Shown here: positions 6,373 to 39,063 of the stretch, piece by piece
Layout: each line of letters starts with the position of its first letter
Position numbering within the stretch: position 1 is the first letter of the stretch
From: an uncultured Paraprevotella sp.
GTDB taxonomy: Bacteria; Bacteroidota; Bacteroidia; Bacteroidales; Bacteroidaceae
NCBI GenBank assembly: GCA_944321565.1
Contig: CALULT010000026.1
Location: 1 to 40,523 of the forward strand
Direction of reading: 5' to 3'
DNA length: 40,523 nucleotides
Translations under genes and position numbers: made by a program
Notes under the pieces: generated by a model
Seen by the model: the letters and a program-made list of their open reading frames with translations, nothing else
Databases searched by the model: none
Told to the model about the DNA's origin: nothing

Positions 6373-6399
6373 GAGTTGAACTTAAAGTGAAGTGGAAAA

Positions 6400-6990: not shown

Positions 6991-7088
6991 CGGGTTGGTC
7001 GAGGAAAAGGTTCTTACTGCCCCGTGGTTGGAGCGGGGAAACATTGGGAATATTAATAAGAAAGTTTTAACGTTAAAAACGAGTGATT

Positions 7089-25424: not shown

Positions 25425-25484
25425 GTTGTAGTGTTTCGTTATTATATATGCTGTCCTCCGGTTTGGCACCCGGAAGGGGAAGCA

Positions 25485-27839
25485 TCAGAAGAGCAGGGCG
25501 ATGCGATAGACCGCAAACGCCATCACGTAGGCCAGCGCGGTGGTGTATGCCGCCGTGAAGACGGCCCATTTCCAATGCCCGCTTTCGCCTTTGACCGCCG
25601 CGATGGTGGCCAGGCACGGGAAGTAGAGCAAGGCGAACACCATGTAGCCCAGTGCGGCCTCGGGCGTGGTTTGCTGGCTCAGGACTTGGGCCAGCCGGGT
25701 CTGTGCGGCATCCTCGGCCGTTTCGGCCTCGGCGTCTTCCGCTTCGCAGCCGTAGAGCACCCCGAGGGTGCTTACCATCAGTTCTTTCGCGCCGACCCCG
25801 GCGATGATGCCCACGCCCATGCGCCAGTCGTATCCTAGCGGGCGGATGGCCGGTTCAATGGCGTGGCCGATTTGTCCCATGTAGGATTGTTCCTGCTGTT
25901 CGGCTTCGGTGAGTCCGCCATTCGTGGTGGGAAAATAGCCCAAGGCCCAAATGACGATGCTGGCCACGAGGATGATTCCTCCCATCTTGCGCAGGTATTG
26001 CCGTCCTTTTTCCCACGTGTGGCGGCACACGTCGCGCGAGGCAGGCAGGCGGTAGGGAGGCAGCTCCATCACGAAATGGCTTTCATATTGCCGCATGAAG
26101 ATTTTGCTGAACACCCATGCCACCAGCAAGGCCATAATGGTGCCCAGCGCGTAGAGGCCGAGCATGACGGAAGCCGCATGTTGCGGGAAGAAAGCCCCGG
26201 CGAAAACCACATACACGGGAATGCGCGCACTGCACGACACCATCGGCGTGACGAGCATGGTAATCATCCGGCTTTTGGGGTTTTCTATGGTGCGGGTGGC
26301 CATCACGGCGGGCACGTTGCACCCGTAGCCCATCAGCATGGGGATGAAGGACTTGCCGTGCAGGCCTAATTTGTCGAAAAGCGGGTCGGCCAGCATGGCC
26401 GCGCGGGCCAGGTAGCCGGAATCTTCCAGGATGGAGATGAAGAAATACAGGATGAGGATGTTGGGCAGGAAGACGATGACGCTGCCCACGCCGCTCAATA
26501 TGCCGTCGCAGACGAGAGCCTGCAGGATGCCGTCAGGCAAGTGGGTCTTGCCCGCTTCGATGAGCCATGCCACTCCCGCGTCAATCCAATCCATCGGGTA
26601 TTGCCCGATGGTGAACGTGGCCCAGAAGATGAACCACAGGATGAACACGAACAGCGGATAGGCCGTCCAGCGGCTGGCCAGTGCGCGGTCGAGTATCGCC
26701 GTGACTTGGTTTCCGCGCCCTTGTCGCTTGGTGTAAATCCCTTGCAGGATTTGGGCGATGCGGGCGTAGCGTGCTTCGTCGTCGTGTTCGCGTCCCGGAC
26801 AGGGGCAGGCCTCTTCCGCATCGGCAGTTTGTTGCCCGGTGCCGGTGTGCGGGCAATGTTCGGGATGGTTGCAGCAAGCCGCTTCGTGGTTGTGCCCTTC
26901 CACTCCGGACTGATGCAACGCGATGTGTTGGTCTGCCATTTCGATGGCTTTGCGCAGCAGGGGGGCGATGCCGGTGCGGCGGCGTGCCACGGTGGGAAAG
27001 AGCGGCATGCCGAGCCGTTCCGACAACTCGTCGATGTCAAGTTTGCTATGGCTTTCCTCAAATTCGTCGAACATGTTCAAGGCACCCACGAGCGGCACGT
27101 TGCGTTCTTTCAGTTGCAGGGTAAGCAACAGGTTGCGTTCCAGGTTGGTCGTGTCGAGCACATTGATGACGACATCAATCCGTCCGCTTTCCAGTTCGTG
27201 TGCCACGTAGGCTTCTTCGGGGCTGAAGGCGCGGAGGGAATAAGTGCCCGGCAAGTCCACCAGGCGGATTTGCCGTCCTTCGAACGTCATGCGTCCCACG
27301 ATGCAGCTTACCGTCACGCCGCTGTAATTCCCCGTGCGTTCGTGTCCGCCCGAAGCGGCGTTGAAGAGCGAGGTTTTCCCGCAGTTCGGGTTACCCACCA
27401 AGGCTATGGTGATTTCGCCTTCTTCTTTAGGCGTGTCGGTCGTGATCTGTTTCCTTTTCGGGCCGCAACTCGGGCAATCGCATTCCGTGCGAGGTGTTGG
27501 TGTTTCCGTGTGTTTGCACCTGTGGCATTCGGATGCGTGGCCGTCGGGTGGAGTGTTTTTGTCCTGTGCCTCCGTGGTGGCTTGTCGTGTCGCGGTTTGA
27601 TGCACTGTTTCGTCTGCGCCGGTCACCCGGATTTTCCGTGCTTCGCTTTTCCGCAGGGCGATTTGACTGCCCATCAGCTCAAACACGATGGGATTCCCTA
27701 TGGGGGAACACCCCAGCCGCCGGACTGTTTTTCCGCAGACAAATCCCATTTCGCTCAGTCTTGCCCTGAACGGGCCGCTGCCTTCTATGTGTGAAATCAC
27801 CACGGTTTCGCCCGTGCCGATTTCTGCCAAGTTCCTCAT
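25485..27839 (-). CDS. feoB: Fused FeoA-FeoB ferrous iron transporter with Cys/His-rich inserts
   Basis: 784 residues. Residues 1-75 are an SH3-like FeoA domain. A linker (about 100-126) holds HxxxCHRCKH and CDCPSC clusters. The FeoB G domain begins near 145: G1 GNPNCGKTS (149-157), G3 DLPGTYSL (195-202) and G4 NMFD (255-258). A second Cys/His-rich insert (about 305-352: GHNHEAACCNHPEHCPH and CPCPG) precedes the membrane domain, where the Gate motifs and paired permease repeats lie (about 390-784). GTP binding controls ferrous iron entry across the inner membrane. It has a full promoter at 27869-27899 and sits downstream of the haem/imelysin gene run. Confidence 0.95.
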   Translation of the reverse strand: MRNLAEIGTGETVVISHIEGSGPFRARLSEMGFVCGKTVRRLGCSPIGNPIVFELMGSQIALRKSEARKIRVTGADETVHQTATRQATTEAQDKNTPPDGHASECHRCKHTETPTPRTECDCPSCGPKRKQITTDTPKEEGEITIALVGNPNCGKTSLFNAASGGHERTGNYSGVTVSCIVGRMTFEGRQIRLVDLPGTYSLRAFSPEEAYVAHELESGRIDVVINVLDTTNLERNLLLTLQLKERNVPLVGALNMFDEFEESHSKLDIDELSERLGMPLFPTVARRRTGIAPLLRKAIEMADQHIALHQSGVEGHNHEAACCNHPEHCPHTGTGQQTADAEEACPCPGREHDDEARYARIAQILQGIYTKRQGRGNQVTAILDRALASRWTAYPLFVFILWFIFWATFTIGQYPMDWIDAGVAWLIEAGKTHLPDGILQALVCDGILSGVGSVIVFLPNILILYFFISILEDSGYLARAAMLADPLFDKLGLHGKSFIPMLMGYGCNVPAVMATRTIENPKSRMITMLVTPMVSCSARIPVYVVFAGAFFPQHAASVMLGLYALGTIMALLVAWVFSKIFMRQYESHFVMELPPYRLPASRDVCRHTWEKGRQYLRKMGGIILVASIVIWALGYFPTTNGGLTEAEQQEQSYMGQIGHAIEPAIRPLGYDWRMGVGIIAGVGAKELMVSTLGVLYGCEAEDAEAETAEDAAQTRLAQVLSQQTTPEAALGYMVFALLYFPCLATIAAVKGESGHWKWAVFTAAYTTALAYVMAFAVYRIALLF

Positions 27840-27868: not shown

Positions 27869-27899
27869 CAAAATTACGCGCATTCCGCCGAGGGGGCAA
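27869..27899 (-). promoter_or_regulatory. Promoter of feoAB
   Basis: On the minus strand TTG (27897-27899), 20 bp, then TAATTTTG (27869-27876), 30 bp before the feoAB start. The layout is the same as the promoter at 37319-37349. Confidence 0.7.
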
Positions 27900-27920
27900 T
27901 ACCTAATTATGATGATTTTT

Positions 27921-29966
27921 TCAGGCGTTGGCGTAGCTGTGCATACCGCCAAGTAGGTAGTTGACTCCGAAATAGGTCATGAGTACGACGGCGAAAGCCA
28001 GTACCATATAAATATGAAACGTGCGCGGACGTTGCAGCCAAGGCAGGCTGCGGGTGTGGAAAGCGATGCCATAGACGATGAACGCCACGAGAGCCCATAC
28101 CTCTTTAGGGTCCCACGACCAATAGCTGCCCCACGACACGTTGGCCCACACCGCACCGAGGATGATGCCGATGCCAAGCAGGGACGTGGCGGGATAGAGC
28201 AGGAGGCGGCTCAGCAGGGTGAGTTGCATGACGCGTTCGCGGGTCAACGGAAGGCAGGCGTTTCCGGTACGTCCGGATAAGACGAGTGCCAACAAGCCAT
28301 TCAGGAAGATGAAGGCGAAGAGGGCGTATGAAATCATGATGAGCGACACGTGCCAACTGAGCCAAGGCGAGGCGAGAACGGGCATCAGTGGCGTAATTTG
28401 CGGGTTCATTTCCCCCAGGTAAGCCACTAGCAGTATGAAACCGGAAAGCAGGAAGCCGAAAGGCAGGACAAACGGGAAACGGCGGCGGAGCAGGCAGGCC
28501 GTGAGGAGCACCACCCAGGCTGCGAACAGCATCGTTTCGTAACCGTTGCTTAGCGGGATGGTGCCGGCAATGTATCCCCTGAGGGCATATCCGGCGGTGT
28601 GGAAGAGTGTGGCAATCCACAGGACTGCCGTCCACAGGCGGCGGATGGCCGGATTTTCTTTGCGCCGTAGCAGCATCCGTCTGACGAGGAGACCGAACGC
28701 CACGATGCCCAGCGTGAGGTTGGCCATGAACAGAATTTTGCAGAACGGGATACGGTTGTACCACAGCTCGGCCCGGACTTTCGCGGAAGAAAGGCCGGGC
28801 ACGCCGGGCGGCAAGGGGCGGACGAGTGTGCCTTGGGTGAGCATCAAGGCCAGTCCCACTTTCTCATCGGTTTCTTGTATGGCCTTGGCCATTTTTCCCC
28901 GTGTGCCCATTTCTTGCTGCCACAGGGCTTGCAGTTTGTAGTCCGTCCCGTCGAAGAGTTCCGAGAGCATGGCGTATTCGTTTTTGATGCCGAGCCGTTC
29001 GCGCAGTTTGCTGCTTTTGATGCGGATGAAAGGCACACGGTTCCACGCTTCGGGATGGAGTTGCCAGCTTGCCACCACCTGTTCGGGTGTCAGGCCGCGG
29101 AACGACGGCGCGCCATAGACTTTCTGCACGAAGTCCCGCGCCGGGGTGTTCAGCGGGGCGATGCGCCCGTTGTAAACGACTTGGACGGAAGCCAGGCTGT
29201 CGGCTTGCGTCCGCTTGACAACGGGCAGGGGCGATGCATCGACGTGGAAAGAGGCAAGGCATAGCCATGCGAACAGTCCGCCCCGGCGGAGCAGGGGGTG
29301 GCGCAGCAGGCGGCGGAATCCCCCTTGCGGGTCGAACAGTGCCAGCAGGAAACCGATGCAGAGCAGGGTGAACCCGGCATAGGAGACGGTCGTGCCATAC
29401 GGGTCATGGTTCACCGTGAGCCAACTGCCTTCGTGGTCTTCGTCGAAAGAGGTCTGGTAGAAACGGTAGCCTTTGGTCGAGAAGATGCGGTTCATGGAAA
29501 TGCGCGGGCTGCAGAGCAGCTGGCCGTCGGTGGTGTGGCAGGAGATGTCGCTCACGTAGTCGGCGGGCGCGTCCGTCCCGACATAGTATTCCACGCGGAA
29601 GCGTTCCAGCGTCATGGTGAACGGCAGTTGCGCCATCCGCCGCTGGCCGTCCACGTAGCTTGTGGCCGGGATGCCTTGGCGCAGGTGCAGGATGCCCTTG
29701 TGGCCCGTGAAGGCCGTGAGGAGCGCCCCGGCGAAAACCACCACGAATCCGGCATGCAGGAGGAGGGACGGCCACCGTTTCCACATCTTCCGGCGGATGG
29801 CCGTAACCACCAATCCAATGAAGATGGCCGTCCATGCCAAGGCGAACCACCACGTGCCGTAAACATACGTGTGGACGAAAGCCGTGCCCCGGGCATTCTC
29901 CACGAACGTGGCGATGCCCAAGGCTGCGGCGGCCATGAAAAGCAATATGAACGGGACGGATTTCAT
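27921..29966 (-). CDS. Fused ResB-CcsA cytochrome c maturation protein
   Basis: 681 residues. The N-terminal part (1-about 370) is ResB/Ccs1-like: two membrane helices (about 5-20, 35-55), one at 68-88, a periplasmic region with LHLRQG and DYVSDISC, a helix near 205, and a further periplasmic domain. The C-terminal part (about 420-681) is CcsA-like, with the tryptophan-rich haem motif WGSYWSWDPKEVWAL (about 610-625) and conserved His residues in SWHVSL and AFHTR. Such CcsBA fusions deliver and attach haem to CxxCH motifs of periplasmic cytochromes. Two proteins with CxxCH motifs are encoded just upstream in the same run, so they are the natural clients. It starts 9 bp after the Rid gene. Confidence 0.93.
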   Translation of the reverse strand: MKSVPFILLFMAAAALGIATFVENARGTAFVHTYVYGTWWFALAWTAIFIGLVVTAIRRKMWKRWPSLLLHAGFVVVFAGALLTAFTGHKGILHLRQGIPATSYVDGQRRMAQLPFTMTLERFRVEYYVGTDAPADYVSDISCHTTDGQLLCSPRISMNRIFSTKGYRFYQTSFDEDHEGSWLTVNHDPYGTTVSYAGFTLLCIGFLLALFDPQGGFRRLLRHPLLRRGGLFAWLCLASFHVDASPLPVVKRTQADSLASVQVVYNGRIAPLNTPARDFVQKVYGAPSFRGLTPEQVVASWQLHPEAWNRVPFIRIKSSKLRERLGIKNEYAMLSELFDGTDYKLQALWQQEMGTRGKMAKAIQETDEKVGLALMLTQGTLVRPLPPGVPGLSSAKVRAELWYNRIPFCKILFMANLTLGIVAFGLLVRRMLLRRKENPAIRRLWTAVLWIATLFHTAGYALRGYIAGTIPLSNGYETMLFAAWVVLLTACLLRRRFPFVLPFGFLLSGFILLVAYLGEMNPQITPLMPVLASPWLSWHVSLIMISYALFAFIFLNGLLALVLSGRTGNACLPLTRERVMQLTLLSRLLLYPATSLLGIGIILGAVWANVSWGSYWSWDPKEVWALVAFIVYGIAFHTRSLPWLQRPRTFHIYMVLAFAVVLMTYFGVNYLLGGMHSYANA

Positions 29967-29975
29967 CGTTCCCGG

Positions 29976-31115
29976 TCAGAAGTCGCGGAATGAAGGGTTG
30001 TGGCGTTCCTTCACGGCGGTGCATTCCATCTCGATGAGCCACGTGGGACGGCACACGGGTGCCAGCGTGAAGACGCGCGGCGTGTCGGGAAACTTCCGGT
30101 CGAACATGGCTTTCACCATGGGGTAGTCGCTGATGTCGCGCAGATAGACGATGATTTGCGCCACGTCGTCAAACGTCGTGCCGCCTTCTTCGAGCAGTTT
30201 GCCCACGTTTTCCCACATCCGTTCCGTCTGTTTCACGATGTCCCCCACATGGATCACTTCGCCCTTGTTGTTGATGCTGGCCGTGCCGCTGATAAGGACG
30301 TGCGCCCGGTCGCCGTATTCCATCACCGTGCCGCGTTCGAACGTCACGCCGTATTCATACGTAGGGTTCAGGTGGGTCGGGGCGTAGAGGTAACGTTGCT
30401 GTGCCGGTTCGAATCCGGTGAGGGCGTACGTGTCCATCTGCACCAACGCCCGCGTGTCGGCCGGCGATCCGCCGATGCCCGTACTGCTGATGAAATGCGT
30501 CTGTTCGGTCAGTCCCTGTTCCTTGAAGTTCTCCTTGCGGGCTTTCACCATGCCGGCATACTGTGTGTCCACGTCGCGCACGAAGAACCACGTGCGGATG
30601 CAGTTGCCGGCCAGTGTGGCGTGGAAACTTTGCAAGGCTTCTTCATAGTTGATGAGCAGCGATTCCGTCTGCCAGGCCGAATCGCCCTTGTGTTCGTGCA
30701 TCCCCATTTTCCACAAGTGCCTGTAACCGTTGTGTTCTGCCACGACCATGCCGCCCGCGTTGGCCACTTGTGTGCCTTTCTGCAGGTAAATCCACACGGC
30801 CACTTTGCTGCCGTCGAGCGGCGGCTGTTGGATGGCGGAGACGGCACATTCCGTTTCTTGCCGCATGAGTGGCTGCTGGTTGGTGGAATCGCTCAGGAAA
30901 TATCGTTTCAGGATGGGGCATGAGCCGCTGACTTGCGGCAGCCCGGACAATCGTTGCTCACCTTCGTAAATCCGGTGGAGTTGCCCTTCGAAGAGTTCGC
31001 CGCGTGGTTCCACATGGAGGATGGCGTGGAACTCTTCCACTTTTCCTTCGGGCGTGAAAGCCGAAATCTCGGCCTTTACGCCAAGGTCTTCCCAATATAC
31101 TTTATGATAATGCAT
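29976..31115 (-). CDS. Rid-family (YjgF-like) protein with long N-terminal domain
   Basis: 379 residues from the ATG at 31115; an earlier ATG at 31166 would overlap the preceding gene. The last about 120 residues are a YjgF/RidA-type domain: SGTASINNKGEVIHVGDIVKQTERMWENVGKLL and a C-terminal IEMECTAV. The N-terminal about 230 residues are unlike simple RidA and recall the two-domain chorismatase (FkbO/Hyg5)-like relatives. No signal peptide is seen, so it is cytosolic. It is set between the haem-motif lipoprotein and ResB-CcsA, 9 bp and 16 bp apart, firmly in that operon. A role in clearing reactive enamines or in aromatic precursor metabolism is possible; neither is shown. Confidence 0.75.
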   Translation of the reverse strand: MHYHKVYWEDLGVKAEISAFTPEGKVEEFHAILHVEPRGELFEGQLHRIYEGEQRLSGLPQVSGSCPILKRYFLSDSTNQQPLMRQETECAVSAIQQPPLDGSKVAVWIYLQKGTQVANAGGMVVAEHNGYRHLWKMGMHEHKGDSAWQTESLLINYEEALQSFHATLAGNCIRTWFFVRDVDTQYAGMVKARKENFKEQGLTEQTHFISSTGIGGSPADTRALVQMDTYALTGFEPAQQRYLYAPTHLNPTYEYGVTFERGTVMEYGDRAHVLISGTASINNKGEVIHVGDIVKQTERMWENVGKLLEEGGTTFDDVAQIIVYLRDISDYPMVKAMFDRKFPDTPRVFTLAPVCRPTWLIEMECTAVKERHNPSFRDF

Positions 31116-31131
31116 AGCTGTTCTTTTTTTA

Positions 31132-31842
31132 TTATTCTTTTGCTCCGGCATTAATCCACTCATCAATCAGGCGCAAGGTGATGGACGAGGTAATCATGCC
31201 TTCGTGGCTGAACCCAAGTCCCAGCTCGTTGCCGGGACGGATGACTTTGTGCAGGACGCTTTCTTCCGCGTTGCCGGGAATGACGCGTGTGCCTTCCGCC
31301 GAAGTGGCGGGCTGGTTGACGAGGCTTCCGTGGCTTTGCCCCTCCGTCAGGTAAAGTCCGGCGGCAGCCGTCGTGCTGAGGCCGTGGCATTGTGCGCAGG
31401 TGTTGTTGAACACGTCATGTTGTATGGCTGCATACATGCTTGCGTCCACTTCGCCTGCATCCAGGTAAATCGTGTCGCCCACGGCGGAAGAGACATCCGC
31501 GCTGGCGAAAGTCAGTACCCGCCGGCGCAAGGTGTTGGTCACGCAAAACTCCACAGTGCGCACGTCGTTGCCGATGTTGTACAGCAACAAGGTCACGTTG
31601 CCTTCCGTGTCGGGATGCACGGTGGTCTGGCTGCGCGAATAGTCGCTTTCGCCGAAGGTGGCCAACGCCACGTCATAATAGTCCGGCCACGTGTCCGCGC
31701 CGGTGACGTGGGCGGTGAGCTTGGCCGTGTATCCGGTGTGCTCAGGCGCATGCTCCTGTTCGTAGATAAGTCCGTCGTCGCAGGCCTGGCATCCTACCAT
31801 GGCCGCGAGCAAGGCAAATTTAATATTGTTTTTTGTAATCAT
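31132..31842 (-). CDS. Haem-motif (CxxCH) lipoprotein, cytochrome c-like
   Basis: 236 residues. The N-terminal SPII-like signal ends near MVGC. Residues about 25-135 form a beta-rich domain. Then follows CAQCHG, a single c-type haem-binding motif, in a segment (about 140-230) resembling the planctomycete-type cytochrome c domain, including SHEGMITSSITLRLIDEWINAGA. It should be lipid-anchored in the periplasm or on the outer membrane and take part in electron transfer. It lies 27 bp after the porin and 16 bp before the Rid gene. Haem would be attached by ResB-CcsA encoded in the same run. Confidence 0.8.
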   Translation of the reverse strand: MITKNNIKFALLAAMVGCQACDDGLIYEQEHAPEHTGYTAKLTAHVTGADTWPDYYDVALATFGESDYSRSQTTVHPDTEGNVTLLLYNIGNDVRTVEFCVTNTLRRRVLTFASADVSSAVGDTIYLDAGEVDASMYAAIQHDVFNNTCAQCHGLSTTAAAGLYLTEGQSHGSLVNQPATSAEGTRVIPGNAEESVLHKVIRPGNELGLGFSHEGMITSSITLRLIDEWINAGAKE

Positions 31843-31869
31843 AAGTATTGCGGGCTGGTTTAACTTCTG

Positions 31870-33081
31870 TTAGAAGGAATATTGCAGCTGGATGGTGCCC
31901 GAATGCTTGGCCACGCCGAGGTCGTCGTTGTCACGGTCGAGTTGTGTGTCGTGCCCGGTGCGCCCGATGAACTGGTACATGGCCTGCAGTTTCAGGTTGC
32001 AGTTCTTGAAGAAGTAGTTGCAGCCGATGGCGGGCATGTTCAGGAAGCCGTTTGTGTCCATGCCGTTGCGGTTGAAGAAGTCGTAACGTGCGGCCACCTG
32101 CACACGCGGGGCCACGAAGTAGCCGCCTTGCACGTATCCGCCCAAGTAATCGTAGGTTTCGTCTATCTTCTGCCGGTCGGTGAAACCGACGTGCATGTAG
32201 TAGGCTTCCGCGCCGATGTAGAGTTTGTTGCGCAGCATGGCAAACTCAAGTCCGACGCGCGTGTCGTTCGTGCTCTCGCTTTCGCTCTCCACGTTCAGGT
32301 TGGCACTCGCCCCCAGCATCCATTTGTTTTCGTGCAGGCGGTCGGGGTTGCCCTGCGTGGCGGGCATGATGCCTTTGGGCATGAAGGTGAAGCGTCCGGC
32401 ATAGAGCAGCGAAGGGATGTGCCAGTCGTCGCTGAGGGTTTTCGTCGAGGTGTTGACCGACGCGCCGGTACCGTTGAAAAGGCCGATTTCGTAACCGAAC
32501 TTGTCGGCTGCGAAGCCATGGATTTCCACGCCGAGGTCGAAGCCTGTCCCGATGTTGGGTGTCACGGCGTTCAGAGAATAAGGCATGATGACGGCTGCCG
32601 TGAGCGACGTGGGGAGCGTGGGCATCAGCGTTTCGCCCAGCGTGGTCAGGTAGCCGTGTGAGAACGGGGTCTTGAATTTGCCAATGCGCACGGCAAAGGC
32701 TTGTTTCAAGGCCACGTCGATCCAAGCCTGCTGCAGGATGGCCCCGCCGCTGGCCGCCGCGTTGATGGAGAGGTTGAAGGACACTTTCCCCCATGCCTTC
32801 CCGGTGAACCCGAGCACGGCGTAGGGCACGGAGAAGCCTGAGTTGGCCAAGTTGTCCTGGTTGTAGGCTTTGTCCAACCCTTCGTCATCATACCAGTTGA
32901 CGTTGGCCGCCGTCTGCACGAGCAGGTAGGGTTTGAACACGAAGTCGCCCCGTTTCGACTGGATGGAGAATCCTTCGCGGCCGGCAAGGGAAACCACGCC
33001 GTTCTCGCTGCCCTCTTCATATTGTGCCATGGCGGTGAGGGGAAGAGCCGCCAGCATGGCCATTGCGAATATCTTTTTCAT
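31870..33081 (-). CDS. Outer-membrane porin, OprO/OprP type
   Basis: 403 residues with a cleavable signal peptide MKKIFAMAMLAALPLTAMAQ. The mature protein has alternating beta strands, ends in Phe (LQYSF), and carries the porin motif VRIGKFKTPFSHGYL, resembling phosphate-selective OprO/OprP-like porins. Bacteroidota use this family for many solutes, so the name does not fix the substrate. It stands between the di-haem lipoprotein and the haem-motif lipoprotein, 60 and 27 bp away. The same run encodes a second barrel at 35969. Confidence 0.82.
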   Translation of the reverse strand: MKKIFAMAMLAALPLTAMAQYEEGSENGVVSLAGREGFSIQSKRGDFVFKPYLLVQTAANVNWYDDEGLDKAYNQDNLANSGFSVPYAVLGFTGKAWGKVSFNLSINAAASGGAILQQAWIDVALKQAFAVRIGKFKTPFSHGYLTTLGETLMPTLPTSLTAAVIMPYSLNAVTPNIGTGFDLGVEIHGFAADKFGYEIGLFNGTGASVNTSTKTLSDDWHIPSLLYAGRFTFMPKGIMPATQGNPDRLHENKWMLGASANLNVESESESTNDTRVGLEFAMLRNKLYIGAEAYYMHVGFTDRQKIDETYDYLGGYVQGGYFVAPRVQVAARYDFFNRNGMDTNGFLNMPAIGCNYFFKNCNLKLQAMYQFIGRTGHDTQLDRDNDDLGVAKHSGTIQLQYSF

Positions 33082-33141
33082 TGTCTTTTCCTATATCTAT
33101 AATAATTAAGGTGAATGTTTGTGGAATGTTTGGCTGGCGCA

Positions 33142-34584
33142 TCAGAGCGATTCCAGGAAACGGACGAGCGCGTCGCGGTCTGCCTTCGGCATGCGCTTGA
33201 ACAGGTTTTTCGAGGCTTCGCCTTCCCCGCCGTGCCACAAGATGGCTTCAATGAAGTTGCGGGCGCGCCCGTCGTGCAGGAAGTAGGTATGCCCGTTCAC
33301 TTTCTGTTGCAAGCCGATGCCCCAAAGCGGGGTGGTGCGCCATTCATTCCCGCGGGCCAGCCCGCTCACGTAATTGTCGTTCAGCCCCACGCCCATGATT
33401 TCGCTGCCCATGTCGTGGAGCAGGAAGTCGGAATAAGGGTGGATGGTCTGGCTGCCCAGCCAGGTGAGCTGGGTGCCCATCAACAAGGTGGAGCCGCGCG
33501 GCTGCGTGTGGAGGGTCGTGACGTGGCACAGGTGGCATTTGGCTTGGTAGAACATCTGTTCGCCTCGTTGCACCGTGGGGTCGTTCACATTGCGCCGTGC
33601 CGGCACTCCCAGTCCCTGCATGTACAAGTCCACGTCTTCCATGTCTTCCGCGCTGATGTCCAGCTGGTCGTAGCTCAGCCCCATCATGCTGCCTTCCTGC
33701 ATCTGGAGCTGGCCTTCGCAGATTTCTTCCGGATAGCGGCTGTTGGTCACGCCCATGTCGCTGCTAAAGCCCAGTTCCACGGTCAGGTCGGCATGTTGCG
33801 CTTTGTTGCCACTCAGTCCCAATTGCAGTTTGCCTTTTTCCGTGATGTAATTCGCACGTCCGCTGATGCCGTATTCCGGATAGTTGCTCTTGGCCGCGAG
33901 CTGTTCGATTTCGTGGCGGTCGATGGCCATCATCGGTCCCATGCCCACATGGCGCAGCGGGATGCGCACGGTGCAGAACAGGTCTTCGGGGGCTACGCTG
34001 TCGGCATACCATTCCGTGATGGTGTATTCCGGATAACACAGTTCGTAGGGTTCGCCGTCGGGGAACGCGCCTTGTTCGTAGTGCCATTTCACGTTGAGTT
34101 TGCCTTCCGGCTGCACACCGTAGATGGCCTGGTCGTGGAGCACACGTCCGTAGCCTTGGAAGAACGCCCCGTTTTTGCGGCTGATATAGACCAGCATGGA
34201 CGAGAAACCGTAGGACCCGCTTCCTCCTTCGCCATGAATGCCGCCCGCGTTCCACAGTTCCGGCTTGGTGCGCCCCGCGTTGCGGTGGCAGCTGCCGCAG
34301 GAATAGCCTGCATACACGGGGCCAAGCCCTTCGCCCGTGGTGCGGGCATCGTCATAAAGCCCGTCGCCGTCGCGGAAACGCATGGCCATGGCCGGTTCGC
34401 TGTCGATCCAGTCGGCTTGCGTGTCGTAGGCCACGGGGCTGTCGAGGAAGATGGTGGAAATGCCGGCCGAGAGGGCATAGCCTTCGGGCACGTCGATGTC
34501 CAGGACATCCAACCCCTCGTCCTCGCAAGCCGTGAGGCAGGCGGCCAAGGACAGCAGGCACAAGTGTTTTGCTATGTGGTTCAT
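33142..34584 (-). CDS. Di-haem oxidoreductase (DUF1111) lipoprotein
   Basis: 480 residues from the ATG at 34584, which begins the lipoprotein signal MNHIAKHLCLLSLAACLTAC. Two haem c motifs are present: CGSCH (about 92-96) and CHLCH (about 349-353). Between them lie conserved-looking Tyr, His and Trp residues, and near the end YFLHDGRARNFIEAILWHGGEGE, typical of DUF1111 thiol-oxidoreductase/di-haem peroxidase-like proteins. Members often sit beside imelysins, as here (the imelysin gene ends 117 bp upstream, across a hairpin). It may oxidise a metal or pass electrons in the periplasm; that is inference. Confidence 0.9.
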   Translation of the reverse strand: MNHIAKHLCLLSLAACLTACEDEGLDVLDIDVPEGYALSAGISTIFLDSPVAYDTQADWIDSEPAMAMRFRDGDGLYDDARTTGEGLGPVYAGYSCGSCHRNAGRTKPELWNAGGIHGEGGSGSYGFSSMLVYISRKNGAFFQGYGRVLHDQAIYGVQPEGKLNVKWHYEQGAFPDGEPYELCYPEYTITEWYADSVAPEDLFCTVRIPLRHVGMGPMMAIDRHEIEQLAAKSNYPEYGISGRANYITEKGKLQLGLSGNKAQHADLTVELGFSSDMGVTNSRYPEEICEGQLQMQEGSMMGLSYDQLDISAEDMEDVDLYMQGLGVPARRNVNDPTVQRGEQMFYQAKCHLCHVTTLHTQPRGSTLLMGTQLTWLGSQTIHPYSDFLLHDMGSEIMGVGLNDNYVSGLARGNEWRTTPLWGIGLQQKVNGHTYFLHDGRARNFIEAILWHGGEGEASKNLFKRMPKADRDALVRFLESL

Positions 34585-34627
34585 TGTGTTATGTCCTTTT
34601 TTTAATGATTGTCTGTTTGAAACCGCT

Positions 34628-34667
34628 AAAGTGAAGGTGGCCTGTTTTGAGAGGCCGCCTTCACTTT
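34628..34667 (-). other. 16-bp-stem hairpin between imelysin and di-haem genes
   Basis: AAAGTGAAGGTGGCCT (34628-34643) pairs with AGGCCGCCTTCACTTT (34652-34667), one G-T pair, 8-nt loop. The stem itself ends in TTT on the minus strand, but no long U-run follows. It could be a partial terminator or a stability element lowering expression of downstream genes relative to imelysin. Confidence 0.7.
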
Positions 34668-34701
34668 CGTGCGCCTTGTCCGGGCGCGCCAGCATGTGGG
34701 T

Positions 34702-35913
34702 TTATTCCGTCGGCACGGTACGCGGTTCTCCGTTTTTGAACAACAGGAACTCCAGGGTGTGGAAGCCGCGCACGTTTTGTGCGGCTTCGATTTCATCGTC
34801 GCTTTCGCCGTCTGTCCAGTTCAGGTCGTCGAAGTTGCCGGAGTTCAGGATGTTCACGATGGCCACTTGGTCAAGCGGCCAGCTGTCCATGTTGGGGTCG
34901 AGTCCCAGCGCGTCCACCGGGCCGAACAGGAAAGCTTCGCTTTTTTCCCACGGTTCGCGGGCCACTTTCCATGCCTCGCAGGCATCCGAGAAGGTGTCGT
35001 TGGTCGGGTTGTTGTAAAATGCCTGTACGGCTTGGGTGAGTGCCGCGCTGCCTTCGCTCAGGCTTTTGTAGGTGGGAAGTACCACGTTGTCCACATAATC
35101 GTTCACCACTGGGTCAAGCTGCGCGTCTTGCAGGCTGCCGTTGTTCAGGGCTGTTTGCAGGCATCTGCGTAGGTCGATGTCAAGGATGTCACCTAGGGCG
35201 AGGCACGAGGATTGTGCCACGGGCACTTGTGGGTCTCCGATGTTGTTGCGGAAAGGCTGCGGGATGGCCAGGATGTCGGCTTCGGCCTTGTCGATGGCCG
35301 CAATGACGCGGGTGTTCAGGGCAGGGTCGATGCTTTCTACTACCTTGCTTAGCGAGTTGGCGCTGATGGTGGAGTTGTCCATGCTGTTGTAGTAAGAATT
35401 TCGGATGGACTTGATGTTGTTGGAATAGTCCTCTCGCGAGCGGAAGCTGTACCACGACTCCACGGCGTAGAGGGCTTCCGTGGTTTGCCCGGCCATGTAT
35501 TTGTTATAGGGGTCGCCAATCTTGGTGTTGCCCACCTCGTCGGTGATTTCCACGCACTTGTCGATGATGGTCTTCACGCAATCCCATGCCGTGGCATAGT
35601 CAGAGGAATTGTGGCTCTTGAATGTTTCCTTGTAGGCCGGGCCTGTCGTTCCGTTCAACACGTATTGGCTGTTCCAGCTGGTATAAAGCGTCTGTGCGTC
35701 GGTCTGCAGCAGTTTGGCCACCTGAAGGGCATAGTTTCGCCAGCTTTGCGCGTTTTCTGCCGTGTAATCCAGGTCGGCCGCGTCAGTTTCGCCTTGGCCC
35801 GTGGTCGGCCCCTTGGTTGTGGTGTCATCGTCGTCGCTGCACGAAGTCAAGGCCGTGCCGCCAAAAGCCAGTCCTGCGAGCAGGAGGGCTGAAAAGAAAA
35901 ACTGTTTTTTCAT
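34702..35913 (-). CDS. Imelysin family (M75-like) lipoprotein
   Basis: 403 residues. A signal peptide with lipobox LTSC precedes an Asp/Thr/Gly-rich spacer (SDDDDTTTKGPTTGQG). The helical body has the imelysin signature RGFHTLEFLLF (GxHxxE, about residues 382-390) near the C-terminus. Imelysin-like proteins include EfeO and IrpA and are tied to iron uptake, although the family was first named for a putative insulin-cleaving activity. It probably binds iron in the periplasm or at the surface. It is the second gene of the run, 55 bp after the barrel, and just upstream of a di-haem protein, paralleling EfeO with the haem peroxidase EfeB. Confidence 0.88.
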   Translation of the reverse strand: MKKQFFFSALLLAGLAFGGTALTSCSDDDDTTTKGPTTGQGETDAADLDYTAENAQSWRNYALQVAKLLQTDAQTLYTSWNSQYVLNGTTGPAYKETFKSHNSSDYATAWDCVKTIIDKCVEITDEVGNTKIGDPYNKYMAGQTTEALYAVESWYSFRSREDYSNNIKSIRNSYYNSMDNSTISANSLSKVVESIDPALNTRVIAAIDKAEADILAIPQPFRNNIGDPQVPVAQSSCLALGDILDIDLRRCLQTALNNGSLQDAQLDPVVNDYVDNVVLPTYKSLSEGSAALTQAVQAFYNNPTNDTFSDACEAWKVAREPWEKSEAFLFGPVDALGLDPNMDSWPLDQVAIVNILNSGNFDDLNWTDGESDDEIEAAQNVRGFHTLEFLLFKNGEPRTVPTE

Positions 35914-35968
35914 GTTGTTTGAGTTTTATATGTTTGTTGTTTTTTGTTTTGTTGATGCGAATGGCAGA

Positions 35969-37270
35969 TTATTTTCCCCAAAACCAGCCCACGTAGGCCA
36001 CTCCGATGGCAAACTCGTTTTCGCTGTTGAACTTTCCGCCGCCGATTTTGCGTGTCGTGTAGTCGGCTTTGAAGATCAGGCCGGGCAGGGCTTTCCAGTT
36101 GAGGCCGGCTGTCCACATGCTGGTCTGTTCGCGCAAGTCCGGGCCTTGGCGCACGATGACTTCTTCTTGCGGATTGTAGTATTCATACCGTGCGAAAGGG
36201 TAGAGCACGGGGCATTTCGCGCAGCCAGTGATGCCTTGCAGGTTCAGTCCCAATTCGGCACCGTAGCTCACCGCGCGTTTGGCCACAGGCCCCAGGCGGC
36301 TGTAAGGGCTGGCATTGCCGGAGTTTTTGATGGCAGAAGTTACCTTGTCCGACTTGCCCAGGTTGCCGAAGATGCAGTTGCCGCGGAAGGTGAGGTAGCG
36401 GTTGGTGTATTGCGCGTCCACCGTATAAATCCGCAGGGGGATGTCTCCATAGTCCTTGTAGGTATTCAGTTTGTCGGAGTTGGCTCCGATGTTGTTGCAG
36501 AAATACCATGATGCGCCCACGCGCAATCCCGGCACACCCCGGTAGTCCACACGGGCCACATAGCCCGGCGAGGTGAAGTTGTCTGTTTCGAAGAAGCCTT
36601 GCTTGCCGCTTCCCGCCCACGTCGTGCGGTCGAAGCCGTCGGCGTTCAGTCCGGCCACCACCATGGCCTGGTAGTCGAACGTGGCCCATCCGCGTCCTAT
36701 CGTGCCGAAAAGTTCAAGCCCCGTTTCGTGCCAGGTGGAGGGGATGATTTTCGTTTCGCCTTCCGGACGGCTCGTGCCGAAGAAGTTGATGGGCTCGTGG
36801 TGCGCGTTCGTCAGGCCGACAGGCACGATGAGGTGCCCCACGCGCACATTGATTTCCGGCAGGATGAGACGTGTGATGTGAAATTGCTCCAAGGCCACTT
36901 CGCCGCCTTTCTCCACTTCCATTTCATATTCCCCGTTTTCGCTGTTCTCCAGCTCGAAGGCCGCGCCGGTGCCGCCGCTTTCAAACTCAATTTCCGCGCC
37001 CAGAATCCATTTGGGCGTGAACTTGTAGTCGAACGCCAGCACGAAGCGGGGGATGGAGATGGTGTTGCGGTGGGTCTTGGGGTTGCCTTCGGCATTGCCG
37101 TAATAACGGTTCGTGCCGTAGTCCTTGAAGTTGGCCACCATCTCGCCGTATCCGCCCACGCGGAACTTTTGATAAGAGCTGCCGTCGTCCTGGCTTTCCC
37201 GGGCCGAAACACTACTAAAGGCTGTCAGGGCGGCCAAGGCGACGGTCAGCAGTTTCTTTTCGTTCTTCAT
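35969..37270 (-). CDS. Outer-membrane beta-barrel, porin-like, first gene of the run
   Basis: 433 residues with a signal peptide (MKNEKKLLTVALAALTAF, cut near VSA). Mature strands are rich in Gly, Tyr and Phe; it starts with FRVGGYGEMVANF and ends in a Trp-Phe-Trp-Gly-Lys tail. Motifs EINVRVGHLIVPVGL and INFFGTSRPEGE resemble Bacteroidota phosphate/anion porin-like proteins. A CAKC pair (about residues 365-368) could bind a metal. It is the first gene after a full promoter and diverges from the hemerythrin-LuxR regulator. It probably carries the metal or its chelate across the outer membrane; no plug domain is present, so it is not a TonB receptor. Confidence 0.78.
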   Translation of the reverse strand: MKNEKKLLTVALAALTAFSSVSARESQDDGSSYQKFRVGGYGEMVANFKDYGTNRYYGNAEGNPKTHRNTISIPRFVLAFDYKFTPKWILGAEIEFESGGTGAAFELENSENGEYEMEVEKGGEVALEQFHITRLILPEINVRVGHLIVPVGLTNAHHEPINFFGTSRPEGETKIIPSTWHETGLELFGTIGRGWATFDYQAMVVAGLNADGFDRTTWAGSGKQGFFETDNFTSPGYVARVDYRGVPGLRVGASWYFCNNIGANSDKLNTYKDYGDIPLRIYTVDAQYTNRYLTFRGNCIFGNLGKSDKVTSAIKNSGNASPYSRLGPVAKRAVSYGAELGLNLQGITGCAKCPVLYPFARYEYYNPQEEVIVRQGPDLREQTSMWTAGLNWKALPGLIFKADYTTRKIGGGKFNSENEFAIGVAYVGWFWGK

Positions 37271-37318: not shown

Positions 37319-37349
37319 CAAAGTTACCGTGGTTGTTAAAAAACCGCAA
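37319..37349 (-). promoter_or_regulatory. Promoter of the barrel-imelysin-haem operon
   Basis: On the minus strand TTG (37347-37349), 20 bp, TAACTTTG (37319-37326), 49 bp before the start codon of the barrel gene. Confidence 0.7.
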
Positions 37350-37394
37350 TACACAAAAATGGGCAAATCCGCAGCCGGGGTGATTAGGCCGTTA

Positions 37395-37453
37395 TACCCA
37401 AACTCAGGCTTCTTTACCCACTTTTTCCTGACAATACCCAATTGTGGGGATTG
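37395..37453. promoter_or_regulatory. Three TACCCA boxes at exact 20-bp steps, with an imperfect dyad
   Basis: TACCCA occurs at 37395-37400, 37415-37420 and 37435-37440. The third is the left half of an imperfect dyad (37432-37453) with arms CAAT/ATTG and CCCA/TGGG. The set lies between the two divergent promoters regions, 46 bp beyond the operon -33 box and 54-112 bp before the regulator start. It is a good candidate for cooperative regulator binding. Confidence 0.6.
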
Positions 37454-37506: not shown

Positions 37507-38490
37507 ATGTCTGAGAAATACAAAGAGACCGACCGCATGGGCGACCTCATCTGCGACGACTACAGGATTCTTCAGGTGATCAGCCGCTTCGGGCTTAGCT
37601 TGGGATTTGGCGACCACACGGTGGCCGAGACCTGCCAGGCGGCGGGTGTGGATGCGCCCACGTTTCTGGCTGTGGTGAACTTCATCCGCGCCAACGGACG
37701 AGTGACGAATCTGCCCGATGCCGTGGACGCGCTCTCGTTGCCCGCCTTGATGACTTACCTGCGCCGTTCGCACGACTATTTCGTGAAGTTCCGCCTGCCG
37801 GCCATCCGGCGCAAGCTCATTGAATCCATCGACTGTTCGGCGCGCAACCAAATCGCTTTCCTTATCCTGAAGTTCTATGATGAGTTCGCCGCCGAGGTGG
37901 GCCGCCACATGGATTATGAGGACAAGCATATCCACACTTACGTGGGCGACCTCATGGCGGGGGTGAAAACCAATCCGGACGTGAACATCCATAAACTGTC
38001 GCATCAGCACCACGACAACCACGCGCAAATCGAGAAAAGCCTTTCCGAACTGAAGAGCATCATCATCAAATATTACCCGACAGACAGCAACGCGCGGCTG
38101 CTCAACGATGTGTTGATCGACCTGTTCATGACCGAAGAAGACCTTTTCAGCCATTGCCATCTGGAGGACACGTTGTTTCTCGAAGCCGTGGTGAGGCTGG
38201 AGGAGAAACGGATTGTGGAAAGGGAAGAAGTCGGCAACCAGCCGGAAGAAACAGACATGGAGCCTAACAACGCTACCGACGCGCTCAGCGACCGAGAGAA
38301 GGAGGTCATCGTGTGTGTGGTGAAAGGCATGTCGAACAAGGAAATCGCCGAGCAACTCTACATTTCGGTGAACACAGTGATGACCCACCGCCGCAACATC
38401 AGCCGCAAGCTCCAGATTCATTCGCCCGCCGGGTTGACGATTTACGCCATCGTGAACGGGCTGATTAATTTGGAGGATGTGAAACTATAG
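37507..38490 (+). CDS. Hemerythrin-like di-iron domain fused to LuxR-type HTH regulator
   Basis: 327 residues. Residues 12-75 resemble the ScdA/RIC N-terminal domain (ICDDYRILQVISRFGL) but lack its Cys-Cys motif, having LGFGD instead. Residues 85-235 form a four-helix HHE domain with candidate di-iron ligands His89, His134, Glu138, His168/169, His172, His216/218 and Glu220. A charged linker (about 236-256) leads to a LuxR-type helix-turn-helix (257-321: LSDREKEVIVCVVKGMSNKEIAEQLYISVNTVMTHRRNIS). No receiver domain is present, so it looks like a one-component sensor of oxygen, NO or iron. It is divergent from the imelysin/haem operon, its likely target. Confidence 0.9.
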   Translation: MSEKYKETDRMGDLICDDYRILQVISRFGLSLGFGDHTVAETCQAAGVDAPTFLAVVNFIRANGRVTNLPDAVDALSLPALMTYLRRSHDYFVKFRLPAIRRKLIESIDCSARNQIAFLILKFYDEFAAEVGRHMDYEDKHIHTYVGDLMAGVKTNPDVNIHKLSHQHHDNHAQIEKSLSELKSIIIKYYPTDSNARLLNDVLIDLFMTEEDLFSHCHLEDTLFLEAVVRLEEKRIVEREEVGNQPEETDMEPNNATDALSDREKEVIVCVVKGMSNKEIAEQLYISVNTVMTHRRNISRKLQIHSPAGLTIYAIVNGLINLEDVKL

Positions 38491-38499
38491 CTATCTTTG
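38469..38499 (+). promoter_or_regulatory. Promoter of the LOG-family gene
   Basis: TTTG (38469-38472), 19 bp, TATCTTTG (38492-38499) is a full consensus match. Its -33 element lies inside the end of the regulator gene, and transcription would start about 18 bp before the LOG start. Confidence 0.8.
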
Positions 38500-38523
38500 C
38501 GTATAAAAAAGGAAACACTACTT

Positions 38524-39063
38524 ATGGAAATCAAACATGTGGGAGTCTTTTGTGCGGCGTCCGACCGGTTGGATGCCGCTTATTACGCCATGGCGCGGGA
38601 GTTTGGCCGGTGGCTGGGCGGACGTGGCTTGACGTTGGTGTATGGCGGGGCGGATTCCGGGCTGATGGAATGTGTGGCCGAGGGCGTGAAGGCTGTCGGC
38701 GGACGGGCGGTCGGCGTGGTGCCGCGCATCCTGGAGAGCAAACGCCGCGTGAGCCGGTTGGTGGACGAGGTAGTGCCCTGCAACGACTTGAACGACCGCA
38801 AGGCTATCATGGTGGAGCGCAGCGACGTGCTGGTCGCCCTGCCCGGTGGCATCGGCACGTTGGACGAGGTGTTCACCGTCATGGCCGCCCACAGCATCGG
38901 CTATCACCGCAAGCGGATGGTGCTCTTCGCCCTCGATGGTTTTTGGGACGGGCTGGTCGGCGTGTTGGAGGAGATGGATCGCCGTCATTTCATTAACGTT
39001 CCCCTGGACCGTTATCTGTCCATCGCCCGTTCGTGGGACGAGCTGGAGGCGGCTTTGGGATGA
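38524..39063 (+). CDS. LOG family nucleoside monophosphate phosphoribohydrolase
   Basis: 179 residues from ATG 38524; the frame extends upstream, but the promoter at 38469-38499 excludes the earlier start. The signature PGGIGTLDE (107-115), the Rossmann start GVFCAAS and YGGADSGLM are those of the LOG/TIGR00730 family, once misnamed lysine decarboxylases. They release the base from AMP-like or cytokinin nucleotides. The role in Bacteroidota is not defined, likely nucleotide salvage. It has its own promoter and is followed by a 424-bp gap. Confidence 0.93.
   Translation: MEIKHVGVFCAASDRLDAAYYAMAREFGRWLGGRGLTLVYGGADSGLMECVAEGVKAVGGRAVGVVPRILESKRRVSRLVDEVVPCNDLNDRKAIMVERSDVLVALPGGIGTLDEVFTVMAAHSIGYHRKRMVLFALDGFWDGLVGVLEEMDRRHFINVPLDRYLSIARSWDELEAALG

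Follow-up and report, generated by a model that had tools for sequence, protein, structure and literature searches.

The window analysed here is a stretch of 40,523 nucleotides from an uncultured Paraprevotella sp. (contig CALULT010000026.1). Seven genes lie on the minus strand at 27921–37270, followed by feoAB, and the list of open reading frames confirms all eight at these positions. The features, with the abbreviations used below, are as follows.

35969–37270, minus strand: B1, outer-membrane barrel, a distant Porin_O_P relative (family match among aligned members) with an invariant Glu cluster
34702–35913, minus strand: IM, circularly permuted imelysin lipoprotein, GxHxxE near the C-terminus (PF09375, E = 3.5e-56)
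33142–34584, minus strand: DH, di-haem DHOR (DUF1111) lipoprotein (PF06537, E = 1.6e-61)
31870–33081, minus strand: OP, Porin_O_P outer-membrane barrel (PF07396, E = 1.2e-62)
31132–31842, minus strand: CY, mono-haem c-type cytochrome lipoprotein (one CxxCH, at 149)
29976–31115, minus strand: CH, chorismatase-like protein, the 'Rid-type' gene (Ribonuc_L-PSP, PF01042; profile similarity to Hyg5/FkbO)
27921–29966, minus strand: RC, fused ResB-CcsA cytochrome c maturation protein (PF05140 and PF01578)
25485–27839, minus strand: FeoAB, fused ferrous iron transporter (FeoA plus FeoB), a neighbour outside the conserved module
37507–38490, plus strand: HL, hemerythrin (RIC-like) and LuxR/NarL-type regulator of the CdhR type, divergent (PF01814 and GerE)
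37319–37365, minus strand: operon site TGCCCA-TTTT-TGTGTATTG (37365–37347) and −7 box TAACTTTG (37326–37319)
27869–27915, minus strand: feoAB site and promoter, TAATTAGGTATTG-N20-TAATTTTG, left palindrome half weak

The stop-to-start gaps among the seven genes are 55, 117, 60, 27, 16 and 9 bp, assuming that DHOR starts at the ATG at 34584 and CH at the ATG at 31115 (longer starts are possible at 34695 and 31166), and 81 bp separate RC from feoAB. The initial annotation had described seven genes in one direction with gaps of 9–117 bp, and the coordinates bear this out. Its reading of the gene contents also holds: of the two barrels, OP belongs to PF07396 and B1 is linked to Porin_O_P through its aligned members; the imelysin GxHxxE motif is GFHTLE at residue 383 of IM; the three CxxCH motifs in two lipoproteins are at 96 and 350 of DHOR and at 149 of CY; the haem-attachment machine is RC, with matches to Cytochrom_C_asm plus ResB; and feoAB has a promoter of its own, TAGGTATTG-N20-TAATTTTG, at 27905–27869 on the minus strand. 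Scans of the window with Rfam (gathering threshold) and for tRNA gave no match, and no quinol dehydrogenase was found among the ten proteins scanned by Pfam.

The neighbourhood was compared in 80 loci, the best 80 of 379 relatives by imelysin similarity, and the conservation described here is conditional on that choice. One locus (L002) is almost identical to the window, and some further regions were chosen because they hold a site or a match to HL or CH. With 16 of the 80 loci too short for the gene-order count, 64 had enough flanking sequence, and all seven genes are in order in 52 of these, where genes count as 'in order' with starts, themselves estimates, as much as 3.5 kb apart. Since the seven-gene order is kept in so many loci, the neighbourhood is beyond chance, and it is conserved far beyond close strains. 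Of the three refuting conditions named in the initial annotation, lack of conservation and lack of an iron response (see below) both turned out in its favour. The gene set is carried by many gut and rumen Bacteroidales, and a version of the operon with a four-gene core also exists. By contrast, feoAB, which had been taken as the end of the system, directly follows RC in only 7 of the 52 seven-gene loci, all from Paraprevotella, so that it lies outside the conserved module and we reject Feo as a rule of the module.

IM is a permuted Bacteroidales imelysin of the PIBO type. Its best Pfam stretch, residues 278–395, corresponds to profile positions 1–115, and it is collinear with 3n8u, whereas comparison with the canonical 4ecg gives two swapped stretches. 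It matches 3n8u/3oyv in the PDB (E = 4.7e-127), and Cys25, His385 and Glu388 are present in all 80 rows, two of which are the window. The proposal that the imelysin holds iron is at odds with the solved orthologue, PIBO, for which the thermofluor assay described gave no binding of Fe3+, haem or Zn; a small buried pocket in PIBO was proposed to accommodate a small molecule (PMC3143127). The counterpart of IM in B. thetaiotaomicron, BT_2479, has been detected in the supernatant (PMC6282197), and its signal peptide is able to export cargo (PMC13192842).

DH scores 208.7 bits against PF06537 (cut-off 22) and has two CxxCH motifs, as a DHOR/DUF1111 protein should. Cys20 and the first CxxCH are present in 74 of 74 rows and the second CxxCH in 73–74; in CY, Cys21, the CxxCH and His213 are present in 68 of 68 rows (window included in both). 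At least two acidic residues follow the lipobox Cys in 57 of 76 IM, 58 of 60 DH and 51 of 54 CY sequences. A PDB search with the DHOR profile gave no match, and the only noteworthy matches of the CY profile were cytochrome c domains, FoxE among them as a weak match (E = 0.0025). Taken alone, B1 has no Pfam match below 0.001, whereas Porin_O_P is matched at E ≤ 0.1 by 19 of its 23 aligned members. Eleven Glu between residues 93 and 128 of B1 are invariant in 23 of 23 sequences, and B1 has 12 acidic residues in 36, compared with a maximum of 7 in OP. We call this stretch a cluster because as a fixed pattern it holds in 57 of 74 cases in seven-gene loci and it varies in the core variants, being complete in L196, loosened in L202 and not found in L197–L199. 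The PDB search with the B1 profile yielded nothing meaningful, and comparison of the B1 and OP profiles gave no support for a relation between them.

The 'Rid-type' protein of the initial annotation is instead chorismatase-like. By E-value the best PDB match of CH is the RidA-type 2dyy (1.6e-16), which covers residues 273–369 of 379 only, while Hyg5 (5ag3), the second match, aligns with the profile of 67 CH sequences over residues 111–366 (E = 6.5e-13), and FkbO (4bps) is also found (E = 8.4e-8). CH is thus not a short stand-alone RidA domain, and a RidA deaminase is the less likely reading. The catalytic Glu (Glu334 of Hyg5) and the CH-II Gly/Gly/Cys residues have been named in PMC7170507, and with these residues mapped by an offset of +9, this signature is kept, with Gly213, Gly277, Cys355 and Glu362 of CH invariant in 67 of 67 sequences. 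CH scores 40.7 bits against TIGR04444 (FkbO/Hyg5), for which the cut-off is 325, and so is not filed as a member; we regard it as a separate clade related to these chorismatases and as a putative enzyme. Most of the matches listed when a sample drawn from the phylum was searched with the CH profile span the RidA part only. CH is also found alone, far from DHOR, in many genomes, and a chorismatase-like gene follows feoAB in one further locus (L292).

Of 69 operon promoters, 65 carry a palindromic site, approximately TACCnA-N4-TRGGTATTG, with a spacing of exactly 25 bp to the −7 box downstream of it; the search scanned 17–28 bp upstream and required ATT. With a stricter regular expression, 56 of the 69 promoters match, against a mean of 0.16 and a maximum of 2 in 100 shuffles. 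All 7 Paraprevotella loci have the feoAB site, [T/C]AGGTATTG-N20-TAnnTTTG, with TAGG in four and CAGG in three. The strict pattern occurs at 71 sites in 61 Bacteroidaceae genomes, against one site for the reversed pattern, and outside this family it is at background, with 28 sites against 20 reversed in 293 genomes (both sets summed by hand). Among 20 downstream proteins scanned behind strict sites were two HmuY, two flavodoxins, one DUF2023, two ZIP and three TonB plug proteins, and several genes behind strict sites are without an evident iron role. A relaxed pattern finds a same-strand upstream site in 5 of 22 HmuY loci, two of them directly in front.

HL combines a hemerythrin domain with a LuxR HTH that resembles those of VraR and NarL, and by this domain content it is of the CdhR type. 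Residues 12–226 match TIGR03652 (E = 2e-10), with 40.8 bits falling below the cut-off of 204.7, so HL is not filed as RIC, although it would be expected to work like one. It carries the RIC/YtfE di-iron pattern H...HxxxE...H...HxxxE, with His89 in 27 of 28 sequences and His134, Glu138, His172, His216 and Glu220 in all 28 (window included). These features make HL the best candidate for the protein that binds the palindromic site.

The iron link proposed for the operon is strengthened by data from B. thetaiotaomicron, together with the site shared by the operon and feoAB and the wide conservation of the neighbourhood. The counterpart, BT2473-BT2482, which we equate with the operon by annotation and gene order rather than by sequence alignment, is induced 62.7–323.7-fold by iron depletion and 14–33-fold in a colitis data set (PMC10434189). 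In the same source, an operon for nitrite reductase, which has a ResB and CcsA of its own, is down 30–36-fold, BT2482, an HTH regulator within the locus, is up 324-fold, and feoB is up 5.9-fold with P = 0.25. Because of this P value, strong co-induction of feoB is not shown in B. thetaiotaomicron.

On balance, we lean towards the view that this is an iron-starvation operon of Bacteroidales, activated by HL, in which surface haem lipoproteins, an imelysin and barrels serve iron uptake. It has been shown, here or in print, that the gene order is kept, that low iron induces the counterpart, that the operon and feoAB share a site, that HL has the ligand pattern of a di-iron protein and that the imelysin counterpart occurs outside the cell. 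At low iron, HL, its di-iron site perhaps empty, would switch on the operon from the palindrome, which overlaps the −33 region of the promoter, and in Paraprevotella a like site would let it activate feoAB as well. The products would be two barrels, a surface imelysin lipoprotein, the di-haem DHOR and the mono-haem CY, and a chorismatase-like enzyme, with the operon's own ResB-CcsA attaching haem to DHOR and CY. Most likely, the haem lipoproteins would act at the cell surface, where they would oxidise or reduce iron, or else a small molecule with iron bound to it, the imelysin being their partner or docking protein, and ferrous iron would then enter via a barrel and FeoB. We infer the binding and iron sensing by HL, the surface redox step and its direction, the uptake or transport, and any product of CH. 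Our confidence is weaker because the feoB P value and BT2482 count against this reading; also against it are the lack of binding by PIBO, the linkage of FeoAB in Paraprevotella only, the stand-alone CH genes, the few HmuY sites, the genes behind strict sites that lack an evident iron role, the near-universal presence of HL and the finding of no quinol dehydrogenase, which could have been the electron source, among the ten proteins scanned.

It is possible, though we doubt it, that a Fur-type repressor or some other regulator, such as BT2482, occupies the palindrome, and that HL is co-regulated as a bystander. Against a bystander, the site has the 7-2-7 TACC/GGTA geometry of NarL-type proteins, and HL has an HTH of that class. 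In 26 of 62 loci HL is found within 1.5 kb of the operon and points away from it divergently; in L195 it is likewise divergent from a site-bearing feoAB operon. Of the 71 strict sites, 6 are within 2 kb of an HL-type gene (counted by hand). Of the 61 Bacteroidaceae genomes, 57 have an HL-type gene (in 54 it includes the hemerythrin part) whether or not they have a strict site, in keeping with a bystander; the presence of a gene so nearly universal hardly discriminates. The four genomes without any HL match, three of them less than 85% complete, have no strict site, and one genome (G352) has the HTH match only, yet a strict site. In two Bacteroides loci (L011, L014), read by eye, there is no recognisable BT2482-like HTH regulator gene between HL and B1. 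That CdhR activates hmu in P. gingivalis (PMC10434189, PMC10101095) also counts against a bystander. In favour of another regulator are the iron regulation of the HL counterpart itself, BT0519-0520, up 16–20-fold (PMC10434189), and the induction of BT2482.

As to what the operon acts on, it is unlikely, in our view, that it handles an iron-bound small molecule (a phenolic, a xenosiderophore complex or haem) and not free iron. Here the imelysin would bind the ligand, DHOR would oxidise or reduce it, freeing the iron, and the CH product would be ligand or co-substrate. The pocket of PIBO and its lack of response to Fe3+ suit this scheme, as do the chorismatase-like genes in the operon and behind feoAB in L292, whereas PIBO did not bind haem in that assay and no siderophore-type family is found among the ten proteins scanned. 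We consider very unlikely a peroxide or redox defence at the surface, with DHOR as a CY-fed peroxidase induced in low iron because iron-dependent defences shut down; the DHOR family is described as putative peroxidase and hemerythrin domains can sense O2 (PMC10101095), but many genes for acquiring or sparing iron have the site in front of them, and the counterpart responds strongly to iron depletion. The two ZIP genes behind strict sites might point to uptake of another metal (Mn, Zn or Cu), which is highly improbable given the flavodoxin, HmuY and FeoAB genes in the same site set and the published iron-depletion induction. Quite unlikely, too, is a bolder form of the iron-starvation reading, in which a hemerythrin-type di-iron domain gauges iron and is wired to a NarL-type activator, and the operon is a new iron system in which surface haem lipoproteins work with a phenolic made from chorismate, serving as electron shuttle or ligand, while the imelysin is the docking protein and the acidic barrel the iron pore. 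FBXL5 is the iron gauge of eukaryotes, and under di-iron sensing HL would be its bacterial counterpart.

The iron response of BT2473-82 and the link between imelysin, DUF1111 and iron are already in print (PMC10434189, PMC3143127). The chorismatase-like identity, the palindromic site, HL as its candidate regulator and the four-gene core were not found in the open-access literature searched. Knowledge of regulation by iron levels in Bacteroidetes has been called scarce, and the counterpart belongs to the loci that a gut Bacteroides strongly induces at low iron and in colitis (PMC10434189). With a readable site, a candidate regulon and a regulator that has every ligand of the di-iron pattern, the question of iron regulation becomes directly testable, and the chorismatase-like gene is a concrete biochemical handle on the operon.

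The annotation of BT2473-BT2482 (CcsA, hypothetical, porin, 'thiol oxidoreductase', peptidase M75, hypothetical, HTH) agrees with the operon content here, with a fimbrillin-family gene and the HTH gene in addition; it was published as expression data, with function, promoter site, chorismatase and regulator unassigned in the text available (PMC10434189). PIBO of B. ovatus (3n8u, 3oyv) is an orthologous permuted imelysin that was studied as a protein alone, although it was already placed in a putative operon and linked to iron (PMC3143127). In the Fur-regulated PA4370-PA4373 of Pseudomonas aeruginosa, an imelysin lies beside a DUF1111 protein, as here; that locus is described with two imelysins and one DUF1111 protein, and the description mentions no barrel pair, cytochrome lipoprotein, chorismatase-like gene, ResB-CcsA or hemerythrin-LuxR protein (PMC3143127). 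CdhR (PG1237) with PG1236 of P. gingivalis is an iron-regulated hemerythrin and LuxR pair like HL, fused in P. intermedia (PMC10434189, PMC10101095). According to PMC10434189, CdhR had not been shown to bind iron, and the word 'motif' is absent from the main text of that paper. EfeUOB has in common with the operon an M75 domain, a haem protein and a link to iron, but it has an FTR1-type EfeU and a DyP-type EfeB where the operon has DHOR. Membership in EfeUOB is rejected, as no EfeU (FTR1), DyP EfeB or cupredoxin-M75 EfeO was found among the ten proteins scanned. Finally, apart from about 110 N-terminal residues without a counterpart in the alignment, CH is similar to Hyg5 and FkbO (5ag3, 5a3k, 4bps) over both domains, with the same catalytic Glu and Gly/Gly/Cys residues.

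Eight genes lie on the minus strand, in the order B1 barrel, imelysin, DHOR, Porin_O_P barrel, cytochrome lipoprotein, 'Rid-type' chorismatase-like protein (CH), ResB-CcsA and fused FeoAB, with intergenic gaps of 55, 117, 60, 27, 16, 9 and 81 bp. The gene run, positions and direction agree with the initial annotation. The features are as follows.

37270 to 25485, minus strand: the eight-gene run
24342-25469, minus strand: OprB-like barrel (PF04966) after feoAB, recurring in five Paraprevotella loci
37391-37402 and 37432-37441, minus strand: two extra GGGTAT half-sites between HL and B1
37507-38490, plus strand: HL, a hemerythrin and LuxR/NarL-type regulator gene, divergent from the operon
38497-39063, plus strand: gene after HL, recurring beside HL in seven Paraprevotella loci, presumably encoding a LOG-type protein

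Homologous loci were the best 80 of 379 relatives found in genome contigs with the imelysin as query, labelled Bacteroidales or kin apart from three Firmicutes-labelled bins. These three (L027, Pseudoflavonifractor; L050, Lachnospiraceae; L056, Roseburia) contain the operon and are probably mislabelled or contaminated. Flanking sequence was long enough in 64 loci, and 52 of these have the first seven genes in order, so that the neighbourhood, whose restriction to close strains had been named as a refuting test, is conserved well beyond them. Nine have the first six genes without an adjacent ResB-CcsA (six are Parabacteroides; in one of the nine, L022, it lies 3.3 kb further on), and three deviate. 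Seven of the 52, every one a Paraprevotella locus, have FeoAB directly after the seven genes.

A palindrome, approximately TACCnA-N4-TRGGTATTG with a less conserved left half, precedes B1 in 69 loci. In 65 of these promoters exactly 25 bp separate (G/T)ATT and the -7 box. A stricter regular expression matches 56 of the 69, whereas 100 shuffles gave 0.16 matches on average. feoAB is preceded by [T/C]AGGTATTG-N20-TAnnTTTG in the window and in 7/7 Paraprevotella loci. The strict pattern TAGGTATTG-N19-21-TAnnTTTG gave 71 sites (spacer N20 in 63) among 61 Bacteroidaceae genomes, 38 of which had a match (sums by hand), and its reverse gave one site in the same genomes. Outside the family, 28 sites versus 20 reversed in 293 genomes amount to background; that draw contained no genome labelled as belonging to the same order, and Bacteroidales families other than Bacteroidaceae are therefore represented by the 69 promoters alone. 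Downstream of the sites, 39 first genes were called in 44 loci, and 20 were scanned for families.

First genes behind strict sites (20 scanned)
HmuY, 2; flavodoxin, 2; DUF2023, 1; ZIP, 2; TonB plug, 3
B1-like or Porin_O_P-like, 4; DUF3575 before FeoAB, 1
TetR, methyltransferase, AMP-binding, calycin-like and unassigned, one each

Further site-headed units are led by FeoAB (BLAST or sequence). In 5 of 22 HmuY loci, a relaxed site with the orientation of the gene lies no more than about 1.3 kb upstream, and in 2 of them it is directly in front. In L187 a conserved strict site is followed by a TetR-like, a second and an ABC-transporter-like gene (by eye), and a near-identical promoter (G000:C93:131-167) lies at a contig end of the window's genome. 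The L187 unit resembles BT0507-09 of B. thetaiotaomicron, reported as iron-induced in the available part of PMC10434189.

A core version, the site followed by barrel, imelysin, DHOR and ResB/CcsA, with the Porin_O_P barrel, cytochrome and CH absent, occurs in L196, L197, L198, L199 and L202, regions picked for their site or HL matches. HL adjoins the core in L196, L197 and L202 and is near it in L198 (by coordinates); flavodoxin-like genes (by eye) border the L198 and L199 regions. Beside its core operon, L202 has a second site (L202:896, plus strand) ahead of a short B1-like gene.

What might act on the site? The HTH of HL resembles VraR and NarL. NarL-type proteins bind TACYYMT-N2-AKRRGTA, a pattern that the operon palindrome fits. 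The hemerythrin ligand pattern (H89, H134/E138, H172, H216/E220) is kept in 27-28 of 28 sequences. In 26 of 62 loci HL lies divergently at a distance of no more than 1.5 kb, and in L195 it is divergent from a site-bearing feoAB operon; in B. xylanisolvens (L011) the 4.2 kb before B1 contain a flavodoxin-like gene (by eye) as well as a split HL pair. The two extra half-sites possibly serve HL autoregulation. HL-type matches occur in 57 of the 61 Bacteroidaceae genomes (hemerythrin part in 54, read by hand), so presence alone is no proof of an HL-site pairing. The four genomes lacking any match have no strict site; G352 has an HTH match only, yet a strict site is present. In L200 and L201, strict sites lie directly behind the LuxR half of a split HL, and the next genes in that direction in L200 resemble lactate-utilisation genes (by eye). 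HL belongs to the CdhR type of regulator. In P. gingivalis, CdhR acts as an activator of hmu (PMC10101095, available part), and a hemerythrin gene is its partner.

The CH profile (67 orthologues) matches Hyg5 over residues 111-366 (E=6.5e-13) and FkbO (E=8.4e-8); its lowest E-value is to a RidA-type protein, over the last hundred residues only. Hyg5 Glu334 is essential, and a Gly/Gly/Cys set marks CH-II enzymes (PMC7170507, in part). The equivalents of all four are invariant in 67/67 orthologues. Of a further 22 homologues, taken from later genome regions, 20 retain the full set; in L299 the first Gly is missing, and the fragmented L204 gene (G230) reads as two pieces. The score is far below the TIGR04444 cut-off, and CH thus forms a separate clade. 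It was found in 33 of the 61 Bacteroidaceae genomes (E<=1e-30), with DHOR co-present in 27 of these 33 versus 13 of the 28 others (hand tally) and the two close on one contig in 13. CH follows feoAB behind a site in L292, adjoins ResB or ResB-CcsA in L293 and L304, and adjoins the core in L303. The L292 run (2977-8613) comprises site, FeoAB, CH, a small protein and a permease-like gene (by eye). In L286-L291 and L295-L302, CH lies apart from the iron genes searched, with active-site residues mostly kept. CH is genuinely linked to iron loci, though it also occurs elsewhere.

The lipobox Cys is kept in all aligned rows of the imelysin (80/80), DHOR (74/74) and cytochrome (68/68), followed by at least two acidic residues in 57/76, 58/60 and 51/54; this acidic stretch resembles the Bacteroides surface export signal. 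Mass spectrometry detected BT_2479 in a B. thetaiotaomicron-E. coli coculture supernatant, and the protease activity sought was still present in the BT_2479 mutant (PMC6282197, in part); the signal peptide of BT_2479 directs the export of cargo from Bacteroidaceae (PMC13192842, in part). The imelysin is of the permuted type and orthologous to PIBO, the solved B. ovatus protein. The iron-holding role initially assigned to it is unproven, since thermofluor tests showed no binding of zinc, haem or ferric iron to PIBO, in data not displayed in the paper (PMC3143127, available part). Docking or a small-molecule function is equally likely.

The B. thetaiotaomicron counterpart, BT2473-BT2482, was induced 62.7-323.7-fold under iron depletion, and in a colitis data set the induction was 14-33-fold (PMC10434189, available part, as for the iron data below). 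Its order of CcsA, hypothetical, porin, thiol oxidoreductase, peptidase M75 and hypothetical matches the window operon reversed, the two being equated by annotation and order rather than by sequence comparison; the species is listed among those with permuted imelysins (PMC3143127). In the same iron data the nitrite reductase operon, which includes ResB and CcsA, drops 30-36-fold; this may be why the present operon carries its own maturation protein. A second CcsA is encoded in the window's genome next to a three-CxxCH protein (L308), and no NrfA match was found in that genome. Two points count against the proposed reading: feoB changes 5.9-fold with P=0.25, and BT2482 is another HTH regulator inside the locus (PMC10434189).

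Starting from the gene order, the counterpart's iron induction, the common site and the ligand patterns, we suggest that HL would sense iron and then activate, that the surface haem proteins may carry out redox chemistry on iron, either as such or complexed, that cations may pass through the acidic B1 barrel, and that FeoB would do the import. A bold possibility is that a phenolic from the chorismatase-like enzyme is the electron donor. The locus is already known as iron-induced in one species. The analysis adds that its architecture is conserved, that it has a chorismatase-like component and a promoter site, and that a di-iron regulator is a candidate for controlling it.
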